Shown here: piece by piece, positions 51,692-62,105 of the stretch | How the letters are laid out: the number at the start of each line of letters is the position of its first letter | Numbering within the stretch: the first letter of the stretch is position 1 | Translations under genes and position numbers: made by a program | Source of the DNA: Spirochaetaceae bacterium | GTDB lineage: Bacteria; Spirochaetota; Spirochaetia; Treponematales; Treponemataceae | Assembly (NCBI GenBank): GCA_017618015.1 | Contig: JAFZVC010000074.1 | Coordinates: 62,001-126,000, forward strand | Direction of reading: 5' to 3' | Length of the DNA stretch: 64,000 nt | Notes under the pieces: model-generated | Database searches by the model: none | What the model saw: only the letters and a program-made list of their open reading frames with translations | Told to the model about the DNA's origin: nothing

Positions 51692-53542
51692 ATGTCAAAG
51701 AAAACTGTTGCAACAAATGCCGCCGCGCCGTCAGAGTCGGTGCAGACGACTTCAATTTCAAAGAAACTTGTTATAGCTAATATCGCTTCAGCCGCGCTGT
51801 GTGTGCTGTTCTCTTTCTTCCAGATACATTTTGTAGGTGATATTTCGGTACTGGCTTTCCCGCTTTCAGTCCTGTTTTCAGTGCTGCTCTCACTTGTAAA
51901 TGCTAAAGTTCTGCTTGGCGGCGGTAATGTGAAATACGTCGGTGTTTTGCGGAAATTCAACGAATATGTTCCTTTCGTAATGCTTTTGTCGTTCGTTCTC
52001 CGCCGCGCTGGAGAGAACGGAACTTCCTGGGGCTATGACCTTATTACGGTGATTCTTTGGGTTCTGCTTACTGCGGCATCGATTTTTGCTTGCTTTTATC
52101 TTTCAGAGAAGCGTGTTTGCCGTGACAATCCAGTTTTTAAGGCACAGCGCGAAGAAAACCCGCTGAAAAAACGAAAGGGTGCGGTTCGTGTTGCGATAGA
52201 GGCTGTTAGCTGGATAGATGCCTTTATTCAGGCGGCTTTTACCGTTGCGCTGCTCAATATTTTTGTTTTCCAGCTTTACGAAATCCCGTCAGAGTCGATG
52301 GTGCCTGAATTCCTTATAAAAGACCGGGTTTTTGTGTTCAAAACTACATCTGGTCCAAAGTTCCCGCTCTCTAACATCGGGCTTCCGTGCCTGCGCTCCT
52401 ATGACAGGGGCGATATTGTTGTTTTTAGGAATCCGCATTACGAGAACGACCAGAAGAGCGAGGTGAAGAACTTTGTCTCTACGCTTGTGTATATGCTTAC
52501 GTTCACTCAGGTCAACCTGAATGTAGACGAGGACGGAGCGCAGAAGGCAGATCCGCTCGTTAAGCGTGTTACCGGTGTCCCCGGCGAGCAGCTGATGCTG
52601 CAGGACGGCGTTCTTTACAGCCGTACAGCAGCTGATCCGGTGTTCAAGCCTGTCGAGGCTGACGCGACTTGGGCAGAGTGGAATGTTTCTGCTTTGTCCG
52701 CTGAGTTTCTTAAGAACGTAGAGACAATTCCGATTACTGGCGATATGTACAACGCGCTGCTCGCCGTGGAAGAAGCCCGCCGCAACATGAGTTACGCAGA
52801 AGCCGCCGCCGAAAGCCGCCGCATAGCAGCCCGTTTCTTGGAAATAAGGAACCTTGTTAACCCGACGCTTGCTGGAGAAGCCGCGAGCGATATCGTGTCA
52901 AAGTCTGATATGTACGTGACGACGCTTTTTAACAAGGCGGATGCGCTTTATATAAAGCTGCTTTCAGTTGAGGGCGGCGCGGAATGGCTTGCTGAATTCC
53001 TTACGTCGTGGATTCCGGTTTACGAAAAGTCCGTTGCGGCGGGAAACACTGAAATAAACGGAAACTTGTACGATGAGTCGATGTTCCGTTTCAACATAAT
53101 GATAAAGAACTGCCTTGGTAACCTTATCCTGCGCAGTGCGGAAATGAGTCTTGAAGGACTTGGAGCTTCCGCCCGCACGACCGATGCGACGAGAACGAGC
53201 CTTCTGCAGGAAGCGAACCGTTATGTGCTGTACGCTGTGCTGAACGAAAGCCGAAATATGCCGGTGTTCCCGGCGAACGACGCGAACGGAAACCCACAGT
53301 ATATTCCTGAGGGTAACTATTTTATGATGGGCGACAACCGTTTCAACTCGCTCGATATGCGCCATTCCTATGACCAGAAAACGATTCCTGTTACGGAATT
53401 TGATCCATACTCCGCATATTATAAGTCGAATGTTGATCCGCAGTATGTGAGCGAAAGTCGCATCCTTGGTTCACCGAACCTGCGCTTCCTGCCGCTTAGC
53501 CGCTTCGGTATTCCGGGACAGACCGCCGAAGTCCGCAACTAG
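51692..53542 (+). CDS. lepB: Signal peptidase I, long spirochaetal form
   Basis: 616 residues (usual length 180-330). Residues ~25-195 contain four to five hydrophobic helices. The catalytic Ser is in YEIPSESMVP (~203) and Lys in LVKRVTGVPGEQ (~291); later boxes GNYFMMGDNRFNSLDMR (~545). Between ~315 and ~520 about 200 residues, largely helical, are inserted where other enzymes have a short loop. Cleaves signal peptides at the outer face of the inner membrane. It starts at 51692, 6 nt after a -10 box. Confidence 0.88.
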   Translation: MSKKTVATNAAAPSESVQTTSISKKLVIANIASAALCVLFSFFQIHFVGDISVLAFPLSVLFSVLLSLVNAKVLLGGGNVKYVGVLRKFNEYVPFVMLLSFVLRRAGENGTSWGYDLITVILWVLLTAASIFACFYLSEKRVCRDNPVFKAQREENPLKKRKGAVRVAIEAVSWIDAFIQAAFTVALLNIFVFQLYEIPSESMVPEFLIKDRVFVFKTTSGPKFPLSNIGLPCLRSYDRGDIVVFRNPHYENDQKSEVKNFVSTLVYMLTFTQVNLNVDEDGAQKADPLVKRVTGVPGEQLMLQDGVLYSRTAADPVFKPVEADATWAEWNVSALSAEFLKNVETIPITGDMYNALLAVEEARRNMSYAEAAAESRRIAARFLEIRNLVNPTLAGEAASDIVSKSDMYVTTLFNKADALYIKLLSVEGGAEWLAEFLTSWIPVYEKSVAAGNTEINGNLYDESMFRFNIMIKNCLGNLILRSAEMSLEGLGASARTTDATRTSLLQEANRYVLYAVLNESRNMPVFPANDANGNPQYIPEGNYFMMGDNRFNSLDMRHSYDQKTIPVTEFDPYSAYYKSNVDPQYVSESRILGSPNLRFLPLSRFGIPGQTAEVRN

Positions 53543-53576: not shown

Positions 53577-54248
53577 GTGTACAGACTTTTCGTCATAGAA
53601 GACGATACAGGTATTGCATCCGCGATTTGCGACCAAGCCGCGATGTGGGATATGGAAACACGCACTGTCCACGATTTCCGTAACATTGCCGCCGAAGTCG
53701 CCGATTTCTCGCCGCACATCATTTTGCTCGACATAAAGCTTCCGTGTTTCAACGGTTTTCACTGGTGCACGGAAATCCGTAAGTTTTCGCGCGTGCCGAT
53801 AATCTTTATTTCTTCTGAATCAGACAACATGAACGTCATCATGGCGATGAACATGGGCGGCGATGACTTTATCGCGAAGCCGTTCGACCAGAACGTGCTG
53901 ATGGCGAAAATTCAGGCGTTGTTGCGGCGGACGTATGATTTTGCGGCTTCTGTTCCCGTTATGGAACATCGCGGCGTAATCCTTGATATGGGCGAAAATT
54001 CCGTTTTGTATAACGGAAAGCGCATTGAGCTTACGAAAAACGAATACCGCATTTTGCTTACGCTTATGCAGAACAAGGGCTGTGTTACGAGCCGCGAGAA
54101 GCTTATGGAAGCGTTGTGGCAGACGGACTGCTTTGTTGACGAGAACACGCTTTCCGTCAACGTCGGACGGCTTCGGAAAAAGCTTGAGGCGGAAGGGCTT
54201 GCTGATTTTATCGCGACGAAATTCGGCGAAGGGTATATAGTTAAGTAA
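53577..54248 (+). CDS. OmpR-family response regulator (BceR-like)
   Basis: 223 residues. Receiver with acidic pocket VIEDD and Asp in IILLDIKLPCFNGF (~52); C-terminal winged-helix DNA-binding domain (IELTKNEYRILLTLM, VNVGRLRKKLE). 26 nt before the sensor gene. GTG start preceded by GAGGTGG. By gene type it should control the BceAB-like transporter at 61338; a 21-bp-spaced direct repeat upstream of that operon may be its site. Confidence 0.88.
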   Translation: MYRLFVIEDDTGIASAICDQAAMWDMETRTVHDFRNIAAEVADFSPHIILLDIKLPCFNGFHWCTEIRKFSRVPIIFISSESDNMNVIMAMNMGGDDFIAKPFDQNVLMAKIQALLRRTYDFAASVPVMEHRGVILDMGENSVLYNGKRIELTKNEYRILLTLMQNKGCVTSREKLMEALWQTDCFVDENTLSVNVGRLRKKLEAEGLADFIATKFGEGYIVK

Positions 54249-54277
54249 TACGATTTGTTTTTTTTCGGACGGTTTTG

Positions 54278-55288
54278 ATGAAGTTTTTCCTTAAGTATAT
54301 TAGCCAGTTCAAGACTTTTTTTATCGTGTTTTTTGCAGGCGCGATTTTTTTCTCCGTGACTTTTTATCTGTATCACATTCCGGTTATGGCAGTGATTTAT
54401 CCGTCTGTTGTATGCGTTGTGTTTTCGCTGCTTGTGCTTGCTGTGCGGTTCAATTCGGAAAAAAAGCGACACAAGTATTTACAGGATTTGAAAAATTGCG
54501 TTCCCGAGCTGCCACAGAACCTTTTTGCGCAGACGATATGCGAAAATGATTTTGAGGAATTGCTGCGTATTCTTTGCGCAAATATTGCGGAACTTAATAC
54601 GCAGAAAGACGCGCAGTACGCCGACATGCAGGATTACTACAGTCTGTGGGTGCATCAGGTGAAAACGCCGATAACAGCGATGAAACTGATGCTGCAGAAC
54701 GAAAAATCTGCTTCTTCCGCACGGCTCCAAGCCGATTTGCCCCGCGATTTGGGGCGCGAATTACACCGTATAGAGCAGTATGTGGACATGGCTCTTACGT
54801 TTATCCGGCTTGAGTCTGAGACAACGGACTATGTAATCAAAGAGCATGAGCTTGATGATATTATAAAATCCGCCGTGCGGGGCTTTGCCGGCGAGTTCAT
54901 AAGCAGACATCTGCGGCTTATTTACAATGAGTGCGGCAAGAAAATTGTTACTGACGCTAAGTGGTTTTCGTTTGTTTTGGAGCAGGTGCTTTCGAACGCT
55001 CTCAAATACACGCCTGAAGGTTCTGTTTCCATTTTTGTCGAGAATGATGACACGCTCTGTATACGCGACACTGGAATCGGTATAAACCCGGAAGATTTGC
55101 CGCGCGTCTTTGAGAACAGCTACACAGGCAGGAACGGACGCGGAGAAAGCTATTCGTCGGGAATAGGGCTTTACTTGTGCCGGCGTATCTGCAACAACTT
55201 GAACCACACGATTTCGATAGAATCACGTCCGAACGAAGGTACGACAGTGCGGATAGGCTTTGGCCGCAGGGCAGAAAGACTGGAGTAA
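54278..55288 (+). CDS. Sensor histidine kinase (BceS-like, intramembrane-sensing)
   Basis: 336 residues. Two transmembrane helices within the first 60 residues and almost no extracellular loop. Phospho-His in WVHQVKTPITAMKLML; N-box EQVLSNALKYTP; G1 box IRDTGIGINPEDLP; G2 box SSGIGLYLC. This layout belongs to kinases that sense peptide stress through a BceAB-type transporter. ATG 54278 preferred to TTG 54275. The following BceAB genes are displaced by 6 kb of GH5 genes. Confidence 0.88.
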   Translation: MKFFLKYISQFKTFFIVFFAGAIFFSVTFYLYHIPVMAVIYPSVVCVVFSLLVLAVRFNSEKKRHKYLQDLKNCVPELPQNLFAQTICENDFEELLRILCANIAELNTQKDAQYADMQDYYSLWVHQVKTPITAMKLMLQNEKSASSARLQADLPRDLGRELHRIEQYVDMALTFIRLESETTDYVIKEHELDDIIKSAVRGFAGEFISRHLRLIYNECGKKIVTDAKWFSFVLEQVLSNALKYTPEGSVSIFVENDDTLCIRDTGIGINPEDLPRVFENSYTGRNGRGESYSSGIGLYLCRRICNNLNHTISIESRPNEGTTVRIGFGRRAERLE

Positions 55289-55336: not shown

Positions 55337-56905
55337 TTACCTATGTTTAAATACAATGTCGTCGATGTAGATGTCGCCGGTGTTTCTGTTTTCCCAATCA
55401 TCAAAGTCGAAATGAAGGGTTTTAAAGCGATTCCAGTCAAATTCTCCACGAGGATCAAGCCATTTGTTTTCCTTGCTTGACCATGCCCCGCTTTCTTTAA
55501 AGTTCGAAAGTGGAATTTCAACCGTTACCCATTCGCCGACTTTATAATCAGAAGCTTTAATTGTAAAACCCAAATTCCACGGCAGAAATCCTTCTTCGTC
55601 AGAATCTGCAAGATTAAGACGGAATTCCTGCTTGGCACTCGTAAACTTTACGGCAAAGCTGATGCTATAAGCATTATGGTTTTCTATCACTTTTGATAGA
55701 ACTTTTTTTGGAAGAGTTAAAAGGAAATTACTCGATTGAACAGGGTAAGACACCTTTGCACATAGTTTGTGGGAATCGTCAGTTGTAGCAGATTTTACAT
55801 TAAACATACTTTTTGTGCTTGTTCCTTTTGCTGCAAGACCATCGTAGACGACATAAGGTTTTTGCGGGAAAGCTTTGAGCTCAAGGTTTGCATTTGCAAC
55901 AAGCGATTCATCGGGCATCTTAAAGCCGTAGGCTTCCAAAGCGTATTGATCAATATCATCAGGGAAAATTAATGATAAATCTTCTGTTTCCAAAAATCCG
56001 AAATCGAAATCAATTCCCCATGTGCAATAAGGAATGTTGTATTCGTTTAGCGCCGCAACTGTTGTATTCATCCAAACAAGGCGATCAACTGGCATTGATC
56101 TTGCAGCTGCTCCAATTTCGCCTGCCCAGACTCTTACATTATTCTTTTTTGCCCAGGTTGCGACTTTCTTTATCTGGGAATTTATATATTTTACAGTTCC
56201 CTGCTGGGGATATTTTTCTTCAATTTCAATTTTTCCAAACCATCCAAGGCTGGGGTTTAATTCTGGCATACGGCGTTTGTCATAAGGAAACGGTAAATAC
56301 TTTACATCTTGAGCCGGACCATGTGTTCCCTGGTTGGTAAATGGCCCCGGTTCATAAAAATGGAATGCGTATATAAGATTTGGATCTTCATACGGCTTCA
56401 TATTTACAAGGTCATCAAGGCTGTCAAAGTTTGCACATGTTACAACAACAGTATGTTTTGTGTCGTACTGTCTGATAATGGCAAGAATTTCTCTTTGGAT
56501 TTTATCCCAGCAGTCCAAAAGATTTTTAGGCGGTTCGTTCTTTATTTCATAAATGATATATTCGCTTCTGTTTTTGTAGCGTTGTGCTAATTGTGGCCAC
56601 AAAGCCTTTAAATGGGTTTCATATGTTTCTGGCGGTATAGTGTTTTGTATTTCTATAGCACCAAAAGAGTGATCGTCTATAACAAGATAAATCTGATATT
56701 TTTCTGCCCAGTCGCAAACCTGATCAAGTTTTTCTAAAACTACGTCATTTACTTTGCCGGTGTTTATTGGTTCCATCTGAAATTCGAACATAATAGGAAG
56801 TCTTACAACATCAACACCCATGCTTTTAAGACAGGCAAAGTCCGCTTCATCATATTTATTCAAATCAGGAAGACCATCAGTACCTGTTCCAAACCAATCA
56901 GTCAT
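55337..56905 (-). CDS. GH5 glycoside hydrolase, copy 1 (signal peptide out of frame)
   Basis: 522 residues in the open frame. GH5 catalytic domain: general acid Glu in IYEIKNEPP, nucleophile Glu in VRVWAGEIG, plus GVDVVRLPI. A C-terminal ~170-residue beta-sandwich (CBM-like, ending GDIYIDDIVFK) follows. The frame opens upstream into a lipoprotein signal (ILLIFACFALTAC) with no start codon of its own. The natural ATG at 57054 is separated from it by a G7 tract that shifts the frame after 17 codons. Translation from 56905 would give an unexported enzyme. Probably endo-beta-1,4-glucanase or mannanase. Confidence 0.8.
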   Translation of the reverse strand: MTDWFGTGTDGLPDLNKYDEADFACLKSMGVDVVRLPIMFEFQMEPINTGKVNDVVLEKLDQVCDWAEKYQIYLVIDDHSFGAIEIQNTIPPETYETHLKALWPQLAQRYKNRSEYIIYEIKNEPPKNLLDCWDKIQREILAIIRQYDTKHTVVVTCANFDSLDDLVNMKPYEDPNLIYAFHFYEPGPFTNQGTHGPAQDVKYLPFPYDKRRMPELNPSLGWFGKIEIEEKYPQQGTVKYINSQIKKVATWAKKNNVRVWAGEIGAAARSMPVDRLVWMNTTVAALNEYNIPYCTWGIDFDFGFLETEDLSLIFPDDIDQYALEAYGFKMPDESLVANANLELKAFPQKPYVVYDGLAAKGTSTKSMFNVKSATTDDSHKLCAKVSYPVQSSNFLLTLPKKVLSKVIENHNAYSISFAVKFTSAKQEFRLNLADSDEEGFLPWNLGFTIKASDYKVGEWVTVEIPLSNFKESGAWSSKENKWLDPRGEFDWNRFKTLHFDFDDWENRNTGDIYIDDIVFKHR

Positions 56906-57024
56906 GTTTACGCCTTTTGTAAAAGGCAGCGGTTCAACTTCTGAAACCGGTTCGGTTGATAGACATGCGGTGAGCGCGAAGCATGCAAAAATCAGCAGGA
57001 TTAAGAATTTACAGGTAGAGAACG

Positions 57025-57031
57025 CCCCCCC
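57025..57031 (-). repeat. Poly-G tract (G7) in the signal-peptide codons of GH5 copy 1
   Basis: Seven C on the plus strand (G7 in the mRNA), ten codons after the conserved ATG at 57054. The signal peptide is in frame with the enzyme only for G5 or G8; G7 reads to a stop 17 codons after the ATG. One added G would restore the protein. Confidence 0.75.
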
Positions 57032-57103
57032 GTACGTTTGTGTAGTAGTTTCATGAAAAAACCTCTCTTTTTATTAGTCGCCGCGCAAAACGGCGTTAGA
57101 ATC

Positions 57104-57112
57104 ATTATAGCA
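57104..57112 (-). promoter_or_regulatory. Promoter of GH5 copy 1 (conserved in all copies)
   Basis: Extended -10 TG-C-TATAAT on the minus strand. Its leader has a CGCCG/CGGCG hairpin and AGAGAGG before the ATG at 57054. Near-identical sequence lies upstream of copies 2 and 3. Confidence 0.7.
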
Positions 57113-57168
57113 CAGATTTTTGATTTTTTGTTGAACAGCAAATTAAATTAGGGAAGGTAGCATACAAC

Positions 57169-57210
57169 AAAGAGCAGCTCTTGTATAAACCGATATACAT
57201 GCTGCTCTTT
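57169..57210 (-). terminator. Hairpin terminator after GH5 copy 2
   Basis: Inverted repeat AAAGAGCAGC (57169-57178)/GCTGCTCTTT (57201-57210). An inner TGTATA/TATACA pairing extends the stem. It lies 21 nt past the copy 2 stop. The T-run is short. Confidence 0.6.
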
Positions 57211-57231
57211 GTGCTGGAAGAATTATAGGCT

Positions 57232-58800
57232 TTACTTCTGTTTAATTACAACGTCGTCGATGTAGATGTCGCCGATTTTTTTACCGTCAAAATCATCAAA
57301 ATCGAAATAGATGGATGAAAATCTGGCCCAGTCAAATTTACCCTGTGCATCAAACCATTTGTTTGCCTTGCTTGACCATGCACCGCTTTCTTTGAACTTT
57401 GAAACTGGAATTTCGACAGTTACCCATTTCCCAACCTGATAATCAGAAGCTCTTATTGGAACAGTAATATTCCAAGGAGGCAGTTCTTCTCCTTCGTCTG
57501 TATCTGAAAGGTTAAGCCGGAATACCTGATTAACATTCGAAAATTTTACAGCAAAACTAATATAAAAGGAATCATGGTTTTCTATAACTTTTGATGTGAC
57601 TAACTTTGGTAGGGAAAAAGCCATATTGCTCTGTTGAACAGGGTATGATACCATTGCGCAATATTTGTGAGAATCATCAGCGTTAACAGTTTTAGCATTA
57701 TACATATTCATGCTTGTTCCTTTTGTTGTAATACCATCATAAACAATAAAAGGCTTTTTGGGAAAAGCTTTAATCTCAAGGTTTGTTTTTGCAGCAAGCG
57801 ATTCATCAGGCATGGTAAAGCCATATGCTTCCAGAGCTTGTTTATCAATATCATCAGGGAAGATCATGGATGCATCTTGTGTTTCAAGAAATCCAAAACT
57901 ATAATCAATTCCCCATGTACAATAAGGAATATTTTCGTCTTTTAATGCTGCAACGTTTGCCTTGATACAAACAAGACGATCAGCTGGCATCGTTCTTGCG
58001 GAGGCTCCTATTTCACCTGCCCACACTCGAACTTTATTTTTCTTGGCCCAGGCGGCGATTTTCTTAACCTTGTTATTTATATTCTTTTCGTTTCCATACT
58101 GCGGATAGTTGGTTTGAAGGTCCCTTTTTAACCAATCTTCAAGATCATCACTAAGTTTTGGCATACGAGATTTATCATAAGGAAATGGTAAATCCTTTAT
58201 TTTAGAGGCCCAGCCTTCTTCTCCCTGCATCACAAACAACTGAGGCTCATAAAAATGGAATGTGTAGATCAAATTATCATCTTTATATGGTTTCATTTTT
58301 ACAAGGTTATCAGGATTAGACCAGTTTGCACAGGTAACAACAATAGTGTGTTTTGTGTCGTACTGTCTGATAAGTTCAATCGTTTCTTTTTGAATTTTAT
58401 CCCAACTCTTCGAAAGATTTTCCGGTGGCTCGTTTAATATTTCATAAATGATATATTCGCTTCTGTTTTTGTAACGTTGAGCTATCTGTGGCCATAAAGC
58501 CTTTAAATGCGTTTTATATGTTTCTGGCGGTATAGTATTTTGTATTTCCTGTTCATTAAAAGAATGATTATCTATGACAAGATAAATCTGATATTTTTCT
58601 GCCCAGTCACAAACCTGATCAAGTTTTTCGAATACGATGTCAGTTACTTTGCCGGTGTTCTTTGGTTCCATAATCCACTCGAAATGAATAGGAAGTCTTA
58701 TAACATCAACACCCATGCTTTTAAGACAGGCAAAATCAGCTTCATCATATTTATTCAAATCAGGAAGACCTTCATAACCTGTTTCAAACCACTTAAGCAT
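57232..58800 (-). CDS. GH5 glycoside hydrolase, copy 2 (signal peptide out of frame)
   Basis: 522 residues in the open frame. Same architecture as copy 1: IYEILNEPP acid/base, VRVWAGEIG nucleophile, and a C-terminal GDIYIDDVVIK domain. The protein is clearly paralogous to copies 1 and 3 but diverged along its whole length. As in copy 1, the lipoprotein signal (FALTAC) is upstream in the frame. The ATG at 58948 is out of frame because of a G6 tract, so it reads only 14 codons to a stop. G5 or G8 would give a full lipoprotein. ATG 58800 is the first start in the enzyme frame and would give a cytoplasmic product. Confidence 0.8.
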   Translation of the reverse strand: MLKWFETGYEGLPDLNKYDEADFACLKSMGVDVIRLPIHFEWIMEPKNTGKVTDIVFEKLDQVCDWAEKYQIYLVIDNHSFNEQEIQNTIPPETYKTHLKALWPQIAQRYKNRSEYIIYEILNEPPENLSKSWDKIQKETIELIRQYDTKHTIVVTCANWSNPDNLVKMKPYKDDNLIYTFHFYEPQLFVMQGEEGWASKIKDLPFPYDKSRMPKLSDDLEDWLKRDLQTNYPQYGNEKNINNKVKKIAAWAKKNKVRVWAGEIGASARTMPADRLVCIKANVAALKDENIPYCTWGIDYSFGFLETQDASMIFPDDIDKQALEAYGFTMPDESLAAKTNLEIKAFPKKPFIVYDGITTKGTSMNMYNAKTVNADDSHKYCAMVSYPVQQSNMAFSLPKLVTSKVIENHDSFYISFAVKFSNVNQVFRLNLSDTDEGEELPPWNITVPIRASDYQVGKWVTVEIPVSKFKESGAWSSKANKWFDAQGKFDWARFSSIYFDFDDFDGKKIGDIYIDDVVIKQK

Positions 58801-58919
58801 GTTTACGCCATTTGTAAACGGCAGGGGTTCGACTTCTGAAACCGGTTCGGTTGATAGACATGCGGTGAGCGCGAAGCATGCAAAAATCAGCAGGATTAAG
58901 AATTTACAGGTAGAGAATG

Positions 58920-58925
58920 CCCCCC
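58920..58925 (-). repeat. Poly-G tract (G6) in the signal-peptide codons of GH5 copy 2
   Basis: Six C on the plus strand, at the same place as the G7 of copy 1. It is flanked by the same ~27-bp insert that copy 3 lacks. G6 is off-frame; G5 or G8 would be on-frame. Confidence 0.75.
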
Positions 58926-58996
58926 GTACGTTTGTGTAGTAGTTTCATGAAAAACCTCTCTTTTTATTAGTCGCCGCGCAAAACGGCGTTAGAATC

Positions 58997-59005: not shown

Positions 59006-59058
59006 CAGATTTTTGATTTTTTGGGGAAAAATAGCCTTTTGCGGCTGACAACAAAAAT

Positions 59059-59139
59059 ATTATAAAACTTGTAAATATTGCTTAGAAAAACATTATAAAA
59101 CTTGTATTTGGCGCTTGAAAAAGTATTATAAAACTTGTA
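59059..59139. repeat. Three tandem copies of a 33-bp repeat
   Basis: ATTATAAAACTTGTA begins at 59059, 59092 and 59125, an exact 33-bp period; the rest of each unit is similar (AAATATTGCTT, TTTGGCGCTTG, AAATACTGCTT). Located in the 236-nt gap between the promoter of GH5 copy 2 and the end of copy 3. Confidence 0.75.
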
Positions 59140-59153
59140 AATACTGCTTGTGA

Positions 59154-59279
59154 ATTTGCAGCAAAAGAAATTCTGCCAACAACTTTGCGTATAACGCGGA
59201 ACAGGATATCCTCACAATTCCGCATTATGCCGTCTTTGCGCTGGCAGAAGATTTGGCGAAAGGTACTATTTCTGCTTAA
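59154..59279 (+). pseudogene. Fragment of an unidentified protein-coding sequence
   Basis: A plus-strand frame open from a stop at 59151 to TAA at 59277-59279 with no start codon reads NNFAYNAEQDILTIPHYAVF and ALAEDLAKGTISA. It looks like the C-terminal end of a real protein. It overlaps the last codons of GH5 copy 3 on the other strand. Probably a relic left by rearrangement; the parent family was not recognised. Confidence 0.35.
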
Positions 59280-60951
59280 TCATCACATCGTCGATGTAGA
59301 TGTCGCCGTTTTGGTTGTTATCATGATGAAAACCAAAAAAGATATGCTCAAAACGAGACCAGTCAAATTTACCCTGCGGGTTGTACCATTTATTGACTTT
59401 GTCTGACCATGCACCGCTTTCTTTGAATTTTGACATAGGAACTTCAACAGTTAGCCATTCTCCAACCTTGTAATCAGAAGCTCTTATATAAACCGTGTTT
59501 CTCCATGGCGGCAGTTTCTCTCCTCCGTCAGAATCCACAAGATGAATTTCAAAGACTTGATTTGCGTCATTAAACTTTACAGTAAAGCTTAATGCAAGTT
59601 CATTGTGGTATTCTGCCACTTTGGAAGCAATTGCTTTTGGAAGATTAAGAATAAAATTAGCATCTTTCATGCCTGATGACTCTTGAAAATAGTTGTGAGA
59701 TTCATCATCTTTCGCTGCTTTTGATAGATAAGAATGATATGTACTTGTACCTTTTCCACAAAGCCCGTCAAAAACGACATAAGGCTGTTGAGGAAAAGTT
59801 TTGAGTTCAAGGTTTGTTTTTGAAACAAGCGATTCATCAGGCAGTTTAAGGCCATAAGCATCCAAAGCATATTTATCAATATCATCAGGGAAGATTAATG
59901 ATAGATCTTCTGTTTCCAGGAATCCAAAATCGGCATCTATTCCCCATGTACAATAAGGAATATTGTAATTGTTTAGCGCTGCCACATTTGTTTTGATACA
60001 ATAAAGACGATCCTTTGGCATCATTCTGGCTGCTACACCGAGTTCACCACACCATATTCTTACGTTATTCTTTTTTGCCCAGTCTGCTACTTCTTTTATC
60101 TTATTATTCAAAAAAGCTTCATTTCCTTGCTGCGGATATATAGTCTGAATATTGTTTTTTACCCAGGCTTCTAGGCTGTCGTCCAGTTTCGGCATACGTT
60201 TTTTGTCATAAGGAAATGGTAAATCTCGTATATTTGCTGACCATACACCTGTTCCTTGGTTTGCAAACATTTCCGGTAAATAAAAATGGAATGCGTAAAT
60301 CAGATTTTTATCCTCGTATGGTTTCATTTTTATTAGATCGTCGGTATGAGACCAATTTGCAGTGGTTACAACAACAGTGTGTTTTGTGTCGTACTGTCTG
60401 ATAAGGGCAAGTATTTCTCTTTGGATTTTATCCCAGCTATTCATAAGGTCTTCTGGCGGTTCGTTTAGTATCTCATAAATAATGTATTCGCTTCTGTTTT
60501 TGTAGCGCTCTGCTATTTGTGGCCACAAAGCCTTTAAATGCGTTTCATAGGTTTCTGGTGTTGCATCTTTTTGTTGTTCTGGGTCATTAAAAGAATGATT
60601 ATCTATGACAAGATAAATCTGATATTTTTCTGCCCAGTCACAAACCTGGTCCAGTTTTTCAAGAATAATGTTATCTATTTTTCCTGTATAATTCGGTTCC
60701 ATAACAAATTCAAAATGGATAGGAAGTCTAATTATATCTACGCCCATGCTTTTGAGGCATGCAAAGTCCGCTTCATCATATTTATTCAATGGCGGTAGGG
60801 TATTATTCCATGTTTCAAACCAGCGAAGCAGGTTTACACCTTTTGTAAAAGGCAGGGGTTCGACTTCTGAAACCGGTTCGTTGGTTTTGCATGCGGTGAG
60901 TGCAAAGCATGCAAAAATCAGCAGGATGAAAATTTTATGTAGTAGTTTCAT
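59266..60951 (-). CDS. GH5 glycoside hydrolase lipoprotein, copy 3 (intact)
   Basis: 561 residues. A complete lipoprotein signal MKLLHKIFILLIFACFALTAC (lipobox LTAC, Cys21) leads directly into the GH5 domain: MGVDIIRLPIHFEF, acid Glu in IYEILNEPP, nucleophile Glu in VRIWCGELG. The C-terminal beta-sandwich ends GDIYIDDVMIK. Cell-surface plant-polysaccharide hydrolase (beta-1,4-glucan or mannan). It lacks the ~27-bp insert with the poly-G tract found in copies 1 and 2, so it is constitutively in frame. AGAGAGG precedes the ATG. Confidence 0.92.
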   Translation of the reverse strand: MKLLHKIFILLIFACFALTACKTNEPVSEVEPLPFTKGVNLLRWFETWNNTLPPLNKYDEADFACLKSMGVDIIRLPIHFEFVMEPNYTGKIDNIILEKLDQVCDWAEKYQIYLVIDNHSFNDPEQQKDATPETYETHLKALWPQIAERYKNRSEYIIYEILNEPPEDLMNSWDKIQREILALIRQYDTKHTVVVTTANWSHTDDLIKMKPYEDKNLIYAFHFYLPEMFANQGTGVWSANIRDLPFPYDKKRMPKLDDSLEAWVKNNIQTIYPQQGNEAFLNNKIKEVADWAKKNNVRIWCGELGVAARMMPKDRLYCIKTNVAALNNYNIPYCTWGIDADFGFLETEDLSLIFPDDIDKYALDAYGLKLPDESLVSKTNLELKTFPQQPYVVFDGLCGKGTSTYHSYLSKAAKDDESHNYFQESSGMKDANFILNLPKAIASKVAEYHNELALSFTVKFNDANQVFEIHLVDSDGGEKLPPWRNTVYIRASDYKVGEWLTVEVPMSKFKESGAWSDKVNKWYNPQGKFDWSRFEHIFFGFHHDNNQNGDIYIDDVMIKQK

Positions 60952-61337: not shown

Positions 61338-62105
61338 ATGAACGTATTGGATGTTAACGGCATTAAAAAGATTTACAGAAGCCGGTTTGGAACGAATCAG
61401 GTAGAAGCATTGAAAAATATCACTTTTTCGGTAGAGAAGGGTGAGTACATAGCGATAATGGGCGAGTCAGGCTCTGGTAAGACTACGTTGCTCAATATTC
61501 TGGCGGCTTTGGACAAGCCTACCGCGGGAACTGTCATGCTTGAAGGACAGAACCTTACGGGCATAAAAGAGTCGGCAATGGCGACTTTCCGCCGCGACAA
61601 CTTGGGGTTTGTGTTCCAGGAGTTCAATCTGCTCGACACTTTTTCGGTTGAGGACAATATTTTCCTGCCGCTCGTGCTTTCCGGCAAAAAGAACGAGGAG
61701 ATGGTTGAGCGCCTTGAGCCGATTGCAGCGCGGCTTGGAATAGCGGAGCTTTTGAAAAAGTATCCGTACGAGATTTCTGGCGGTCAGAAGCAGCGTGTCG
61801 CGATTGCGCGTGCGATTATCACTGAGCCGAGGATTATCCTTGCTGATGAGCCGACTGGTGCGCTCGATTCTCGCTCAACGGACGACATTCTGCGCATTTT
61901 CGCGGACATCAACAAAACAGGGCAGACAATCCTGATGGTAACGCATTCGATTAAAGCCGCGAGCAAAGCGGGAAGGGTGCTTTTCATCAGGGACGGCGAG
62001 GTGTTCCATCAGATTTACAGGGGCGACGCGACGGACGAGCAGCTTTACCAGAAGATTTCTGACACGCTGACGAGGTTGCAGGCTGGCACAGGAGCTGAGA
62101 GATGA
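61338..62105 (+). CDS. BceA-like ABC transporter ATPase
   Basis: 255 residues. Walker A GESGSGKTTLL, Q-loop FVFQEFNLLDTFSVEDNIFL, signature ISGGQKQRVAIARAI, Walker B IILADEPTGALDSR, and H-loop MVTHSIKAA. The FNLLDTF block is typical of MacB/BceA-type exporters acting on lantibiotics, bacitracin or other peptides. Operon with the permease (ATGA overlap). Functionally linked to the RR/HK pair at 53577-55288. Confidence 0.92.
   Translation: MNVLDVNGIKKIYRSRFGTNQVEALKNITFSVEKGEYIAIMGESGSGKTTLLNILAALDKPTAGTVMLEGQNLTGIKESAMATFRRDNLGFVFQEFNLLDTFSVEDNIFLPLVLSGKKNEEMVERLEPIAARLGIAELLKKYPYEISGGQKQRVAIARAIITEPRIILADEPTGALDSRSTDDILRIFADINKTGQTILMVTHSIKAASKAGRVLFIRDGEVFHQIYRGDATDEQLYQKISDTLTRLQAGTGAER

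Follow-up and report, generated by a model that had tools for sequence, protein, structure and literature searches.

The analysed window, a stretch of 64,000 nt from a Spirochaetaceae bacterium, contains a trio of GH5 genes (copies 1 to 3). Their features are listed in Table 1 together with related loci elsewhere. All three products were assigned to GH5 by their PF00150 matches (E 1e-37 to 1e-39), and their translations contain the catalytic motifs NEP (acid/base) and GE(I/L)G (nucleophile). The nearest solved relatives are endoglucanases (FnCel5A, CelC). The trio lies between a response regulator/histidine kinase pair (window 53577-55288) and an ABC-transporter ATPase (61338-62105) that is followed by a permease-like start, an arrangement that recalls a split two-component/ABC module. 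Three 31-nt direct repeats with a ATTATAAAACTTGTA core and 33-nt spacing were seen between copies 2 and 3 (59053-59149). The Signal peptidase I (PF10502) encoded at 51692-53542 has 616 aa, which is unusually long for its family.

Table 1. Coordinates of the GH5 genes, poly-G tracts and related loci. Positions without a contig prefix are those of the window.
Feature	Position	Strand	Remarks
GH5 copy 1	55337..57054	-	ATG 57054; out of frame as assembled; enzyme frame resumes past tract
G7 tract, copy 1	57025..57031	-	within CGTAC(G)nCGTTCTCTACCTGTAAA
Putative switchable lipoprotein signal, copy 1	56963..57054	-	ATG, tract, FLILLIFACFALTAC; lipobox Cys codon 56965-56963
Ribosome-binding site AGAGAGG	57062..57068	-	upstream of copy 1 ATG; from sequence
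TGTGCTATAAT, extended -10-like box	57104..57114	-	conserved upstream of copies 1-3, C59 and C72; from alignment
GH5 copy 2	57232..58948	-	ATG 58948; out of frame as assembled
G6 tract, copy 2	58920..58925	-	
Putative switchable lipoprotein signal, copy 2	58858..58948	-	lipobox Cys codon 58860-58858
GH5 copy 3	59266..60951	-	ATG 60951; no tract; in frame; lipoprotein signal MKLLHKIFILLIFACFALTAC; putative constitutive form
Further cassette, G7	C4:43616		GH5 gene
Further cassette, G9	C59:1784		GH5 gene
Further cassette, G9	C72:13349		GH5 gene
Poly-G promoter loci, this genome (G000)	C12:292, C16:16920, C87:49331, C99:64432, C115:36043		
Poly-G promoter loci, G001-G002	L059-L069		

Copies 1 and 2 carry G7 and G6 tracts after conserved ATGs, at the coordinates given in the preliminary description. 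The distance of about 30 nt from ATG to tract given there was wrong, as the tract starts 23 nt after the ATG. The reading frames were recomputed, and the remaining statements about them were correct. As assembled, copy 1 is read as MKLLHKRTGGRSLPVNS and copy 2 as MKLLHKRTGGILYL, and translation stops after 17 and 14 codons, respectively. When the tract was set to G5 or G8 in both copies, the product became MKLLHKRTG(G)AFSTCKFLILLIFACFALTAC joined to the enzyme with no stop, so that either length would connect an intact lipoprotein signal to the GH5 body. A stretch of about 28 nt of copies 1 and 2 is absent from copy 3, which is open from its ATG. The AGAGAGG ribosome-binding site is common to copies 1-3 and to the paralogue on contig C4 (see below), and the near-identical AAGAGAGG is found in the paralogues on C59 and C72. 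The TGTGCTATAAT box may be a promoter element.

The whole 3.28-Mb genome was searched with the 5' region of the copies. Three further cassettes were found (C4, C59 and C72), all of them on GH5 genes. The cassette, ATGAAACTACTN-ACAANCGTAC-Gn, is thus common to at least five GH5 genes of two subfamilies: C4 groups with copies 1-3, and C59 and C72 fall into a second subfamily, whose proteins are about 700 aa long and carry an additional region at the N-terminus. Three tract lengths occur among the five cassettes (G7 in copy 1 and C4, G6 in copy 2, G9 in C59 and C72). Frames computed for all five showed copies 1, 2, C4 and C59 to be OFF and C72 to be ON. With its G9, C72 reads through into MKLLNNRTGGGKNSVKKYFSLLIILSCTFAAFAQ... 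and encodes a full-length protein of 702 aa with a signal peptide, so both states are seen among the paralogues. In the ON frame the hydrophobic stretch is followed by a lipobox, FLILLIFACFALTA-C in copies 1, 2 and C4 and LILACCVLTA-C in C59. The signal of C72 ends in AFA-Q instead, and by inspection it is an ordinary signal peptide. The GH5 enzymes of the cassette genes may be displayed on the outer surface. In every cassette a homopolymer tract lies in the 5' coding region and its length decides the frame. In this respect the cassettes have the sequence form of slipped-strand translational contingency loci, although the tracts of copies 1 and 2 are borderline or short for one.

Two further observations were made on the additional cassette genes. 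In C4 (L104:3508-3640, G000) an ATG lies 28 nt upstream of the cassette ATG, in frame with the enzyme at G7; it could serve as a second start and make the locus a three-state switch. The ends of contigs C59 and C72 (L105:1-339 and L106:7217-7555) lie inside GH5 genes and are 96% identical over 339 bp, which probably reflects a tandem array of second-subfamily genes that was left unassembled and that would include one or more additional copies lacking their 5' end.

Across the two subfamilies, 10 secreted GH5 genes could be read at their 5' end, and 6 of them bear a putative poly-G switch, five by the cassette (copies 1 and 2, C4, C59, C72) and one, C99, by its promoter. Those without are copy 3, C2, C73 and C4:22310. 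PF00150 matches number 14 in this genome versus 3-7 in the sister species. None of the six sister species examined from the genus has the cassette. Pattern searches outside the genome gave two matches, an in-frame tract in T. zioleckii and a chance match in a membrane-protein gene of a Lentisphaeria MAG, and the idea of a more widely spread mobile insert was rejected.

Runs of six or seven G are not rare in themselves. GGGGGG occurs 6 times in the window, which has 46% GC, versus 8.0 +/- 3.7 times in shuffles; rarity of the runs was therefore rejected as an argument, and the run alone would not justify the claim of a switch. The motif CGTACGGGGG occurs twice in the window versus 0.01 expected, and 6 times in the 3.28-Mb genome, 5 of these at the same position of a GH5 gene. 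Runs of G9 or longer number 9 in the genome versus about 0.6-2.3 expected from Markov models fitted to the window.

Five of these nine long runs separate a -35 box from a -10 box ahead of genes for secreted proteins or lipoproteins. One of the genes so preceded is C99, a GH5 paralogue of the C59/C72 type, which has no cassette; its promoter reads TTGACA-N9-G10-TAAAAT with a spacer of 19 bp. Nearly all examined spacers of this kind (G7 or longer, 16-20 bp between the boxes) precede lipoprotein or secreted genes. They were found in 36 of 60 family genomes, with up to 20 per genome, and the reversed-pattern control gave 1 match. This family-wide poly-G promoter phasome merits separate study. Tracts within unrelated coding regions were also found. 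At C73:157820 (L103:1321-1329, G000) a lipoprotein gene carrying InlB-type repeats (PF09479, PF18998) has G9 in a Gly-rich linker just past the lipobox and is out of frame as assembled. In sister species G005 (C100, L165:1042-1050) a different lipoprotein gene carries its G9 in the signal N-region and is one nucleotide out of frame; the 365-aa remainder matched no Pfam family. In sister species G002 (C8:73623, L157) a G10 tract puts an acyltransferase-like membrane protein, so classified by inspection, out of frame by one. In Treponema zioleckii kT3 an unrelated lipoprotein beginning MKQLYKRTGG (MKQLYKRTGGVLLFILLMTAILALGC) has G8 and is in frame.

Purifying selection acts on the enzymes encoded behind the closed frames, and their coding sequences are intact. 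Counted from the lipobox, the reading frames of copies 1, 2 and C4 run for 541-551 codons without a stop. Pairwise dN/dS (NG86) was 0.16-0.34 over six paralogues and 0.17-0.34 among copies 1, 2 and C4; for the OFF copies 1 and 2 it was 0.34 at dS 0.59. When copy 2 and C59 are compared between tract and lipobox in the enzyme frame, codon positions 1, 2 and 3 show 0, 2 and 8 differences, a pattern which indicates that this frame of the signal region has been translated. It fits selection on a translated signal peptide, and would not be needed by a leaderless enzyme or a pseudogene.

If tract length is disregarded, copies 1, 2 and C4 share 98-100% identity over their first 63 nt, and the coding bodies (from +110) fall from 89% to 56% identity by section. 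This suggests either that strong constraint at the nucleotide level holds the cassette constant or that recombination has carried it from one paralogue to another. Copy 3 groups with copies 1 and 2 in the protein tree, and not outside C4 (support 89/91; drawn open). Given this grouping, loss of the tract in copy 3, which would have locked it ON, is the simpler reading. It is also possible that the cassette was moved by gene conversion.

Slipped-strand phase variation of GH5 export is the explanation that best fits these sequences, and we regard it as quite probable. The G tract would be a contingency switch in the N-region codons of the signal peptide, most likely working by slipped-strand mispairing that acts on translation. 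Gain or loss of G at replication would decide whether the lipoprotein signal and the enzyme share the frame of the conserved ATG. If they do, a GH5 lipoprotein would be exported; if not, translation would end after 10-18 codons and no enzyme would be exported. Copy 3 and the other paralogues without a tract would be the constant members of the cellulase display. We infer slippage in vivo, lipoprotein export, surface display and any benefit, such as a sharing of labour among cells or the evasion of phage or of immunity. Two other candidates for the role of the 5' region were rejected. An RNA element at the cassette would be expected to fold better than shuffles, and the fold was no better (z 0.37 and 0.45); reinitiation after a leader peptide would need a start, and no usable one lies between the OFF stops and the lipobox.

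The phase variation put forward in the preliminary description is supported by the five cassettes, one of which is ON, by the GH5 paralogue with a poly-G promoter spacer, by out-of-frame poly-G tracts in unrelated lipoprotein genes, both of this genome and of a sister species, and by the intact, selected enzymes behind closed frames. Evidence from the wider genome counts for more here than that from the two window copies. For poly-G tracts, cut-offs of at least 7 (PMC6321876) and, in T. pallidum, at least 8 (PMC7864442) have been used for phase variability, and in Campylobacter slippage rises with tract length from G8 to G11 (PMC4965091). C59 and C72 (G9) lie above these cut-offs, copy 1 and C4 (G7) are borderline and copy 2 (G6) lies below. 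The loci most likely to switch fast are therefore C59 and C72. Switching may be slow at copy 1, C4 and especially copy 2, or these genes may be parked OFF. Active switching at copies 1 and 2 themselves is likely, judging from the sequences compared here.

Assemblies often err in homopolymer length, copy 1 is short of frame by one G only, and the exact G counts may each be wrong by one. In that case copies 1 and 2 might really have in-frame tracts (G8 or G5), with the genes simply ON behind a fixed poly-G linker. We consider this improbable, since four of the five cassettes would need correction and in differing directions (copy 1 by +1, copy 2 by -1 or +2, C4 by +1, C59 by -1), and since sister genomes, which were assembled separately, contain comparable out-of-frame tracts as well. 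Miscounting could alter the ON/OFF calls but not the cassette, and the repeated tract would stay even so. It is also unlikely that G6 and G7 froze after an earlier switching phase and left copies 1 and 2 silent or decaying. Their tracts are at or below the usual switching length and G9 is kept in C59 and C72, which speaks for such a history; against it stand the intact 540-codon bodies with their catalytic motifs, the dN/dS between the two copies and the near-identical cassette sequence in three genes. Selection on the bodies disfavours decay, and recent silencing is possible.

The tract would not decide expression if translation began elsewhere, either at a downstream ATG without a signal or at a rare CTG or ATC inside the signal. 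Enzyme-frame ATGs are present at 56905 and 58800, CTG starts have been reported in spirochetes (PMC7864442), and C4 has the upstream ATG described above. However, copies 1, 2 and C59 have no ATG, GTG or TTG between tract and lipobox, and no Shine-Dalgarno-like sequence precedes the CTG codons. A leaderless product would not require the signal that is conserved in the enzyme frame, and the ATG and ribosome site are conserved in all cassettes and used in frame by C72. Except in C4, the conserved signal and the lack of usable starts disfavour alternative starts, and the probability of this explanation appears low. Runs of G6-G9 can be slippery, and ribosomal or transcriptional slippage might yield a fixed low amount of in-frame product from every allele; the tract would then dampen expression and would be no genetic switch. 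This is very unlikely, as tract lengths differ between paralogues, one of which is genetically in frame, and no unusual RNA structure lies near the tract (z about 0.4). Slippage in transcription or translation could add a leak beside the switch.

If phase variation is accepted, the sharing of one cassette by at least five GH5 genes means that the cells of a clonal population would form a mosaic, differing in the cellulases they display. A wider picture, which we offer tentatively as quite possible, is that of a fibre-degrading treponeme with a combinatorial cellulase phasome. It would comprise at least six GH5 genes of two subfamilies, five controlled by one signal-peptide cassette that spreads among the paralogues via recombination and one by promoter spacing, within the family-wide poly-G promoter phasome. 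Sister cells would display different enzyme sets, as bet-hedging in polymer foraging and not as antigenic variation. Clonal treponeme cells would then divide cellulolytic labour at random, which offers a testable idea on public goods, phage or immune escape and substrate foraging. The matter also bears on annotation: ORF-based gene calling would start copies 1 and 2 at the downstream ATGs, yielding leaderless cytoplasmic enzymes and missing both signal and switch. Phase variation has been studied mainly in pathogen antigens, surface glycans and restriction systems. In the open-licence literature we found no paper that treats phase variation of rumen treponemes or describes cellulases switched by slipped-strand mispairing; random on/off switches of this kind are known from pathogen surface proteins, and we found none reported for plant-fibre enzymes.

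Among known systems, the opa genes of Neisseria carry CTCTT repeats in their signal-peptide codons. As is proposed for the GH5 cassette, their frame is switched at the level of translation, inside the signal sequence and across a multigene family, which gives a combinatorial display. The opa repeat is a pentanucleotide and its cargo an adhesin, whereas here the repeat is mononucleotide G and the cargo a GH5 enzyme. The preliminary description named homopolymeric G tracts as phase-variation switches of treponemes, and this agrees with Treponema pallidum, in which the length of poly-G tracts changes in vivo and affects expression (PMC7864442). The tprE/G/J, tprL and tp0126 genes resemble the present loci in having tracts of varying length on genes for exported proteins of a treponeme, and the switch of tp0126 depends on the distance between -35 and -10 (PMC7864442), which makes it comparable to the promoter class described above. 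The T. pallidum switches studied are promoter or upstream tracts of putative outer-membrane proteins (PMC7864442), whereas the GH5 tracts lie in signal-peptide codons and precede a glycoside hydrolase. Neisseria porA has its poly-G between -35 and -10 (as described in PMC7864442), like the promoter-class tracts including C99; this likeness extends to C99 and the lipoprotein promoters only, and not to copies 1 and 2. The phasome of Campylobacter jejuni likewise has many poly-G tracts per genome, many of them translational, with G8-G12 assayed (PMC4965091, PMC6321876). Its poly-G cargo is mainly capsule, lipooligosaccharide and other surface-modifying genes, in contrast to the GH5 enzymes here. 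To our knowledge, no shared signal-peptide cassette occurs in that phasome. By analogy, the GH5 cassette would work like neisserial opa combined with the treponemal poly-G loci; the kind of switch is already known, and what is new here is the GH5 cargo and the sharing of one cassette.
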